Both the position numbers and the translations under genes were made by a program. A DNA stretch of 30,086 bases, from positions 1 to 30,086 of the IMG/VR virus record IMGVR_UViG_3300036768_001582. One strand, given 5' to 3'. The notes below the pieces were generated by a model, which saw nothing but the letters and a program-made list of their open reading frames with translations, made no database searches and was not told where the DNA came from. Origin of the DNA: a virus. Within the stretch, counting starts at the first letter, position 1; the number at the start of each line of letters is the position of its first letter. Positions 466-1,898 of the stretch are shown here, in pieces.

Positions 466-502
466 CAAGAGAGCTTACGGATTCTTCCGACTCTTGCAAG
501 TC
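466..502 (-). promoter_or_regulatory. Promoter-like element, copy A, upstream of the AAA+ gene
   Basis: Read on the minus strand, a TTGCAA box (499-494) lies 16 bases before TAAGCT (477-472), giving a sigma70-like layout with a 5' leader of roughly 45 bases before the ATG at 418. An A-tract (509-502) precedes the -35-like box and could act as an UP element. The box sits inside the 8-bp palindrome CTTGCAAG, a possible operator. The same 37-bp block recurs at 1862-1898 with 34 identical bases. Transcription start and regulator are inferred. Confidence 0.6.
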
Positions 503-562
503 TTTTTTTTCTAGCCAGCGAAGTGCCGGAAAAACCGGGCTCGACGCGACATCCCAGCCGCG

Positions 563-584
563 CCGGCCCGGCTTCTCCGGCCGG
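563..584 (-). terminator. Possible terminator hairpin after the Asp/Pro-rich gene
   Basis: Directly after the stop codon at 591-589 the minus strand can fold CCGGCC against GGCCGG around a short loop, with extra pairing inside. There is no clear U-tract, so this is only a weak terminator candidate. It separates the gene ending at 589 from the promoter of the AAA+ gene. Confidence 0.3.
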
Positions 585-588
585 TGGG

Positions 589-1389
589 TTACCCATTCTC
601 CGCGGCGTCGTCGGAGGCCGCGCCGGCCGGAGCAGGGTTGGGGTTCACGACCGTGAGGTGGCCGCGGGAGACGATGGCGCGCGCGCCGTCCTTCGTCCGG
701 CAGACCACCTTCGGCTTCCCCTCCTCGTGCTTCACGACGAAGAGCGCATCCATCTCCGCCGGCTCCAAGGCGCCCTCGTACTCCTTCCGCACGTTCTCGC
801 GGATGGCGACCTGCGCGCCGGCGGGGAGCGTCTTCGGCGCGCCCTTGCCGCCGCTGCTCGACGTCGGCGGCGTCCAGCCCACGGGAAGCTCCTGGAGAGA
901 CTTCGCGGAGTCGTTGAGCGCGACGAGCGCGTCAGCGAGCCGAGCACGCGCGAGCGCCACGTGTTCGCCGTCCCCCCACTTCGCGACCACGTCGCGGTGC
1001 TTCGCGAGCTTCTCCGCGGCCTTGCGGAGGAGCACCGCGGTCGTGTGCGCGGGGCCGAGTTGCTTGGCCTGCTCCCAGTAGACCTTCGCCGCGTGCGGTC
1101 GCGCGGCCTGCGTTCCGCTCGGGGTCGGCTCCGGCGCAGTCATCGTCTCGACGGGGCGAGCGCTCGCGGGGACGGGCTTCGCCGGCTTCGCCGCCGCGGA
1201 GCCCCCGAGCAGGGAGCCGACGTTGCGCGCGACGGGCGCGGCCGTGTCGGTGTCGTCGTCCTCGTCGTCGTCCATGTACGACGGCCCCACGGGGTCGTCG
1301 TCCTCGACCGGGCTCGCGGGCTTCGCCGGCGTTCCCTTCGGCTTCGGGGTGGTGGTGGTGCTCTTCGCGGTCGCGGTGGTCTTTCCCAT
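589..1389 (-). CDS. Hypothetical protein with a disordered acidic N-terminus
   Basis: The protein has 266 residues and matches no family I recognise. Residues 1-100 are low complexity: Lys/Thr/Pro-rich, then a strongly acidic run (EDDD, DDDEDDD) and Ala/Pro-rich stretches. Residues about 100-165 are predicted helical (KVYWEQAKQL, AVLLRKAAEKLAKH, ALARARLADALVAL), and the C-terminal 80 residues look like a small beta domain (KPKVVCRTKDGARAIVSRGHLTVV) with a Gly/Ala/Glu-rich tail. The start at 1389 has a good AGGAGA ribosome site. It probably shares a transcript with the gene ending at 1495, which carries the promoter element, 105 bases upstream. A DNA- or protein-binding accessory role is possible but not shown. 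Confidence 0.65.
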   Translation of the reverse strand: MGKTTATAKSTTTTPKPKGTPAKPASPVEDDDPVGPSYMDDDEDDDTDTAAPVARNVGSLLGGSAAAKPAKPVPASARPVETMTAPEPTPSGTQAARPHAAKVYWEQAKQLGPAHTTAVLLRKAAEKLAKHRDVVAKWGDGEHVALARARLADALVALNDSAKSLQELPVGWTPPTSSSGGKGAPKTLPAGAQVAIRENVRKEYEGALEPAEMDALFVVKHEEGKPKVVCRTKDGARAIVSRGHLTVVNPNPAPAGAASDDAAENG

Positions 1390-1494
1390 CGTCGTCTCCT
1401 GCTTCGCGCGCGGCGACGCGCCGGCGCTTCTGATGCGTCGAGGCCGCCGGCGACGAGCGCGGGCAGCCTACGGAACGCGAAACGCGTCAGGCGT

Positions 1495-1824
1495 TCAGTG
1501 CGCGGCGGGGACGCGCGCGCCGCCGCGTCGAGCAGCGGGGACCGTCGCCCAGGGCACCCAGCCGAAGGGCCGGTAAGCCGGGTCGAAGGAACGCGGGCAG
1601 AAGACGGAGCCGACGGCGCGGAGCGCGTCGACGCCCTTCTGCGTAACGAGCGCTTTGGAGATGACGTTACCGGCAACGGTAGTGGTCGAGCCGATGATGA
1701 CGAGCCCTGCCCGAGCGAGAGCGAACGCGGTGGACCGCGAGATGCCGCTGTACTCCCCGAAGCCGTGGCCGTCCGTCATGGCGAACGATTCGAGAGCGCG
1801 GAGCTGAGCGGGGGAAAGCTTCAT
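1495..1824 (-). CDS. Small protein with a possible winged-helix DNA-binding domain
   Basis: A frame of 109 codons starts at the ATG at 1824, which has an AAGGAGA ribosome site about 9 bases upstream. Longer readings of this frame run into the divergent nuclease gene and are not credible. Residues 4-43 contain two helices around SGISRSTAFALARAGLV, and TQKGVDALRAV follows at 61-71. This resembles the wing and last helix of MarR/ArsR-like winged-helix regulators, but similarity is weak and I would call it only possible. The C-terminus is Pro/Arg-rich. It lies divergent from the plus-strand operon and directly behind promoter copy B, a position typical of a local regulator; the CTTGCAAG palindrome in both copies is a candidate operator. 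Confidence 0.6.
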   Translation of the reverse strand: MKLSPAQLRALESFAMTDGHGFGEYSGISRSTAFALARAGLVIIGSTTTVAGNVISKALVTQKGVDALRAVGSVFCPRSFDPAYRPFGWVPWATVPAARRGGARVPAAH

Positions 1825-1861
1825 CGTCGTCTTCTCCTTCGCGGCGTCGTTTGCGCCGACC

Positions 1862-1898
1862 CAAGAGAGCATACGGATTCTCTCGACTCTTGCAAGTC
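1862..1898 (-). promoter_or_regulatory. Promoter-like element, copy B, upstream of the small possible regulator gene
   Basis: This is the second copy of the element at 466-502, differing at 3 of 37 positions. On the minus strand TTGCAA (1895-1890) is followed after 16 bases by TATGCT (1873-1868), a better -10 box than in copy A. The expected leader to the ATG at 1824 is about 37 bases. The CTTGCAAG palindrome over the -35 box is kept. An A-tract occurs further upstream here (1917-1911). Confidence 0.65.

Follow-up and report, generated by a model that had tools for sequence, protein, structure and literature searches.

The window, by which we mean the whole stretch of DNA that was analysed, comprises bases 1–30,086 of a 62,086-base virus record. 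Close to its left end, the minus strand carries the 5′ part of a gene for an AAA+ (MoxR-like) ATPase, whose AAA family matches lie below Pfam's cut-off, and a second unit in which an open reading frame (ORF) of 109 residues is followed by a gene for a 266-residue protein. A gene for a RusA-like resolvase diverges from the second unit on the plus strand. Both minus-strand units are preceded by a copy, called here P1 and P2, of one and the same element (Table 1).

Table 1 Genes and sequence elements around P1 and P2, and the remaining copies of the element in the 62-kb record
Feature	Position	Strand	Remark
AAA+ (MoxR-like) ATPase gene, 5′ part	2–418	minus	cut by the record end; start at 418
P1 ribosome-binding-site-like AAAGGA	427–432	minus	before the AAA+ start
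P1 leader stem CGCGG...CCGCG	440–462	minus	sequence unlike the other five copies
Putative promoter copy P1	466–504	minus	ahead of the AAA+ gene
P1 −10-like TAAGCT	472–477	minus	16-base spacer
P1 invariant 13-mer GACTTGCAAGAGT	490–502	minus	−35-like TTGCAA at 494–499
P1 A8 tract	503–510	minus	directly upstream of the −35 block; possible UP-like role
Gene for 266-residue protein	589–1389	minus	downstream of P2
109-residue ORF	1495–1824	minus	behind P2; start at 1824
P2 ribosome-binding site AAGGAG	1834–1839	minus	sequence-based call
P2 leader hairpin CGGCG-loop-CGCCG	1842–1858	minus	near the predicted 5′ end
Putative promoter copy P2	1862–1900	minus	divergent gap between RusA-like gene (plus) and 109-residue ORF (minus)
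P2 −10-like TATGCT	1868–1873	minus	16-base spacer
P2 invariant 13-mer	1886–1898	minus	−35-like TTGCAA at 1890–1895
P2 A7 tract	1911–1917	minus	upstream; read from the sequence
RusA-like resolvase gene (PHROG 244)	1974–2405	plus	divergent; module neighbour kept in G006
Third copy in the record	43194–43214	minus	−10 further on
Fourth copy in the record	45651–45689	minus	
Fifth copy in the record	46876–46913	minus	

The original prediction described positions 466–502 and 1862–1898 as a duplicated promoter-operator element, and its particulars are reproduced: on the minus strand the two are identical at 34 of 37 positions, each has TTGCAA, a 16-base gap and TAAGCT or TATGCT, with the palindrome CTTGCAAG over the −35-like box, and the gene starts lie 47 (position 418) and 37 (position 1824) bases downstream. 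Two of the three mismatches fall within the spacer and one within the −10 hexamer, and a longer alignment (461–504 with 1857–1900) retains 39 of 44 identical positions (89%). A search of the entire 62-kb record, proposed along with the prediction, found five copies, all on the minus strand; the three further ones are located at 43.2, 45.7 and 46.9 kb. A sixth copy lies about 390 bases past the right end of the record on a longer contig, G002 (IMGVR_UViG_3300035183_001163, 72,636 bases), which was reached by a motif scan of viral contigs and is identical to the record over the end-to-end stretches compared (462, 11,816, 4530, 212 and 2637 bases). The 13-mer GACTTGCAAGAGT is exact in all five copies of the record and, with that of G002, in six of six, and it is absent from the plus strand of the record.

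Shuffled sequence did not yield such a family. Dinucleotide shuffles of the record (n = 40) contained, per shuffle, 0.0 exact and 0.025 one-mismatch matches to GACTTGCAAGAGT, and none of 100 shuffles of the window contained the paired pattern. An unbiased scan, which required the pattern TTG-N3-N15–18-TA-N3-T with a ribosome site and then a start codon behind it, covered the record and two stretches of G002 (L021 and L022), about 88 kb; it returned seven promoter-like sites with a following gene start, of which six are the GACTTGCAAGAGT family. Among viral contigs, the motif search matched seven stretches in five contigs; three of the stretches (four matches) belong to the same virus, and a stricter pattern matched the same virus only. 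The matches in L008, L010, L012 and L014 lie inside coding-like sequence and were judged to be chance; L012 and L014, which are one sequence, carry a ribosome-like site and a GTG downstream of the match. A host repeat or host regulon was rejected, as the motif was found in 0 of 195 Myxococcota genomes in a search that had no positive control.

All six copies share a common layout that consists of GACTTGCAAGAGT, the hexamer pair TTGCAA-N16/17-TA(A/T/G)GCT, a short GC-rich leader stem, a ribosome site and a start codon. The spacer is 16 bases long in P1, P2 and P4 and 17 in P3, P5 and P6, the distance from TA(A/T/G)GCT to ATG is 38–53 bases, and the conserved 13-mer core is about 57–84 bases 5′ of the start codon. 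The preservation of both hexamers around a spacer of 16 or 17 bases fits a pair of contacts across a flexible gap, as opposed to a single rigid site, which makes recognition by a host-type polymerase the simplest reading. Hexamers close to TTGACA and TATAAT with 15–19 bases between them characterise a sigma-70-type promoter, a pattern that all six copies follow; TTGCAA and TA(A/T/G)GCT match that consensus only partly, and the host is itself presumed. Tracts of at least six A residues are found upstream in P1, P2, P3, P5 and P6, with none in P4. With every copy facing a ribosome site and a start codon, the element is well described as promoter-type, as had been proposed. Two other assignments were rejected. 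The GG and GC elements of a sigma-54 promoter are 10 bases apart, at −24/−12; in GGAAGACTTGC they are separated by 7, and the copies retain a −10 box at its spacing. A plus-strand terminator formed by CTTGCAAG and a T-tract would have a short, AT-rich stem, with the T-run about 12 bases away in P2, P3 and P5. The P3 copy (L007 680–760, record ~43180–43260) shares sequence with the 3′ end of the ORF that precedes it. The two arms of a perfect inverted repeat of 13 bases, CCTAATTCCGGCT ... AGCCGGAATTAGG, enclose this copy, and the right arm spans the spacer and the −10 box.

The distribution of sequence changes over the element is markedly uneven. Twenty-six of 48 aligned columns vary, namely 9/10 upstream, 0/13 in the core, 10/13 in the spacer, 1/6 in the −10 box and 6/6 after it; the lack of any variable column within the 13-mer has a hypergeometric probability of 2.6e-6, a value that ignores the kinship of the copies and applies to a core chosen for its match. 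As all bases of GACTTGCAAGAGT are fixed, which is more than a −35 box needs, we infer a second reader of the box. The operator part of the original prediction accordingly stands as an extrapolation from the invariance of 13 bases, six being enough for a −35 box.

The leader stem consists of five base pairs. It is of the CGGCG-loop-CGCCG type in P2, P4, P5 and P6, and P3 has CGGCC-loop-GGCCG, with one compensating pair, the only such case among the six. No T-run follows the stem in any copy. The folding energy of the longer leader was clearly beyond that of shuffles in none of the six, that of the trimmed leader gave z values of −0.98 to −2.58, and a stem of at least five pairs also occurs at 25 of 83 other gene starts. 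For these reasons, a function of the stem in the copies is offered as a suggestion only.

The genes behind the other copies are mostly small. P3 leads to a 69-residue ORF and a DUF6011 protein, P4 to a 132-residue protein, P5 to a 70-residue protein and P6 to a 73-residue protein. The virus carries baseplate, tail, portal, capsid, Mu F-like and amidase families, which identify it as a contractile-tailed phage. Its portal protein has 18 relatives in viral contigs, one of them from the same virus and the others 47–59% identical, and the viral relatives found were either identical or distant. A further 26 portal relatives lie in genome contigs, all of them metagenome bins (17 titled myxobacteria, five Deltaproteobacteria and four others), and the host is likely a myxobacterium. 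G002 contains queuosine-type genes and an S-adenosylmethionine decarboxylase gene; its first 14,000 bases (L021) encode GTP cyclohydrolase I, an amidotransferase-QueC fusion and likely QueD and QueE, which suggest modified DNA. Elsewhere in the record (L007 5708–7511, record ~48207–50010), the gene for a 1227-residue protein runs over tandem DNA repeats that are mostly spaced by 63–69 bases (21–23 residues).

Joint control of the AAA+ gene and the unit behind P2 had also been predicted, and a comparison with the distantly related virus G006 (IMGVR_UViG_3300017605_001488, 96,875 bases, about 99 called genes) makes it the best reading. G006 encodes homologues of the AAA+ (47% identical), 266-residue (28% over 155 residues) and RusA-like (45–47%) proteins in the same order and directions. 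Its AAA+ homologue is followed by a gene for a DUF2201 metallopeptidase/VWA protein. Both minus-strand genes of G006 follow an element of its own, of the form TTGCAA-N16-TAT (TTGCAATCTTCGGCAGCATGCGTATACA and TTGCAATCACCGCAATCATGCGTATGAT). Its agreement with that of the present virus is limited to TTGCAA, the 16-base gap and the first part of the −10 box. The G006 element has five copies in 96.9 kb, three of them outside the module; given five copies and about 99 genes, the chance of both orthologues having one is, as a rough estimate, 0.002. Leader folding in G006 covered three of the five copies, one of the others being without a matching ribosome site and one having an empty leader. The presence in a relative of a switch that is spelled differently and precedes these two genes again argues for a shared control element over a chance repeat. 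Beyond G006, no relatives of the 266-residue protein were found, searches with the AAA+ protein alone gave nothing useful, and the G006 homologue of the latter matched 0 of 193 Myxococcota genomes, again in a search that had no positive control.

Other relatives display repeated motifs of different spelling. In G010 (IMGVR_UViG_3300042876_000282), TATATCTA occurs 15 times and leads in 14 cases via a GGGC/GCCC-type stem to a start; the remaining match has no start in range. Where this stem is longer or shorter by a G, the paired C has been gained or lost with it. One copy stands before a gene homologous to that behind P4 (41% over 65 residues), a parallel with a chance probability of 0.18. An A-tract, CCCCGAAAAAAAGTT, lies upstream of several TATATCTA promoters (L088–L092). 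In G009 (L082–L087; IMGVR_UViG_3300045051_000987), the palindrome TGTTCACCCGGGTGAACA is found at 21 sites over 113.6 kb, many near gene starts, and looks like a repressor-site array; in G012 (L031 1401–7575), a perfect 20-bp palindrome, GCGTCCCGACGTCGGGACGC, is present at three sites shortly before gene starts. At the places examined, no promoter of the TTGCAA kind was seen in G009 or in L094, another relative with the AAA+ gene. Nor was one found in 578 kb of relatives, a result that says little because that sequence consisted mostly of structural-gene regions and left out L024 and L042–L044.

Taken together, we consider it likely that the six copies are virus-specific promoter–leader cassettes of the sigma-70 type, probably early, and that a regulator recognises their −35 box as well. 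It is possible, though less likely, that they are instead plain constitutive host-type promoters spread by recent duplication, in which case there would be no regulator and the shared letters would reflect shared ancestry. The copies do form two subfamilies with shared spacers (P1/P2/P4 and P3/P5/P6), four leaders have long stretches in common, and no regulator was found. The subfamilies, however, differ over most of the spacer and at none of the 13 core bases, whereas changes would be spread evenly had recent copying alone been at work, and selection by the polymerase alone would be expected to move some copies toward TTGACA.

As to the identity of a reader, a phage sigma-like factor, the 111-residue protein of G002, might recognise the box, replacing or joining the host factor. 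This protein shows a weak match to PHROG 3282 'sigma factor' (E 4e-5) and weak GerE and Sigma70_r4 Pfam matches below the cut-off, and the −35 box is where such a helix-turn-helix would make contact. We nevertheless find the proposal unlikely: the protein is without a homologue in G006, G009 and G010, it has one helix-turn-helix region and no visible region 2 for the −10 box, and the match may reflect a generic LuxR-type helix-turn-helix. The original prediction had favoured the 109-residue protein, which would bind the element and control both itself and the AAA+ gene. This protein is encoded by the first ORF behind P2, and its single-sequence model, poor as it is (pLDDT 44), displays a helix-helix-helix-strand-strand-helix order that could correspond to a winged helix. 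Yet it belongs to no recognised family, the searches run gave no relatives (one gave only E >0.03), and it lacks a counterpart in G006, in which the 266-residue homologue is a neighbour of the RusA-like gene and the paired promoters are retained, all of which makes its role as the regulator very improbable. That six copies confined to one virus belong to a dispersed repeat or miniature mobile element with no relation to the genes that it precedes by accident is scarcely credible in view of their uniform orientation to the start codon at the −10 distance given above, the lack of shared end repeats on inspection and the different element at the same two genes in G006; the original prediction would have read many more copies as such a repeat, and more copies do exist, but each is at a gene start.

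The likely virus-specific cassettes resemble several known systems. Like T4 middle promoters, in which a phage-specific MotA box at the −35 place is joined to a host-type −10, they combine a phage-specific box at that position with a host-type −10, but the element described here has a −35-like TTGCAA. Stoperators of mycobacteriophage L5 serve as repressor sites, and many lie away from promoters; in them, too, a single short motif recurs along the genome of a phage, but all six copies described here are at a promoter position. In promoter-early stem-loop cassettes (PeSLs), the stem-loop is a terminator and recombination site, and exchange between cassettes shuffles genes among close relatives. 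PeSLs of T4-type phages are described as short repeated sigma-70-like promoter and stem-loop cassettes at many gene starts of one myovirus (PMC4503421, PMC3950731), and a promoter plus stem-loop in several copies at gene starts is likewise found here, with a stem that is not beyond shuffles, lies between promoter and ribosome site and, judging by its sequence, ends without the U-run of a terminator. Start-associated sequences (SAS) of cluster K mycobacteriophages are short repeats tied to gene starts of the same gene families across relatives, with a consensus that differs per subcluster while gene placement is kept (PMC3203893); the role of SAS and ESAS still requires experiments (PMC12699233). 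The SAS motif comprises 13 bases at gene starts and ESAS consists of paired 17-bp inverted repeats, whereas here a −35/−10 promoter is conserved and the core is not close to the start codon. Since PeSLs and SAS/ESAS each have a defining feature that is absent here, we file the GACTTGCAAGAGT family as a variant of repeated virus-specific start cassettes, a general kind that it fits. Among the papers listed for myxobacterial phage promoters with TTGCAA and for conserved motifs at gene starts, none took the question further.

Combining these observations, we propose the following model. A housekeeping-type sigma factor would direct host RNA polymerase to TTGCAA-N16/17-TA(A/T/G)GCT, with the upstream A-tract aiding binding in five of the six copies. 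Transcription would start about seven bases past the −10 box, and the transcript would soon enter the short GC-rich stem, which stops directly ahead of the ribosome site and may protect or insulate the message. A second reader, a phage or host regulator, would bind over the −35 region and jointly activate or silence all six units, which most likely form an early class; the early timing is probable from the small, accessory-type genes.

It is conceivable, though doubtful, that each phage of this group has a private promoter spelling at many genes, which changes in concert so that the promoter-plus-leader-hairpin arrangement is kept and its letters are replaced. If true, a protein that is encoded by the phage and reads the −35 box, such as the 111-residue sigma-like protein, would co-evolve with the promoters and render them orthogonal between relatives. 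The six copies provide a ready promoter set for a little-studied phage group with probably myxobacterial hosts, and together with G006 they form a clean comparative case in which genes and paired promoters are the same and the letters differ, so that why phage promoter families change in concert becomes directly testable.
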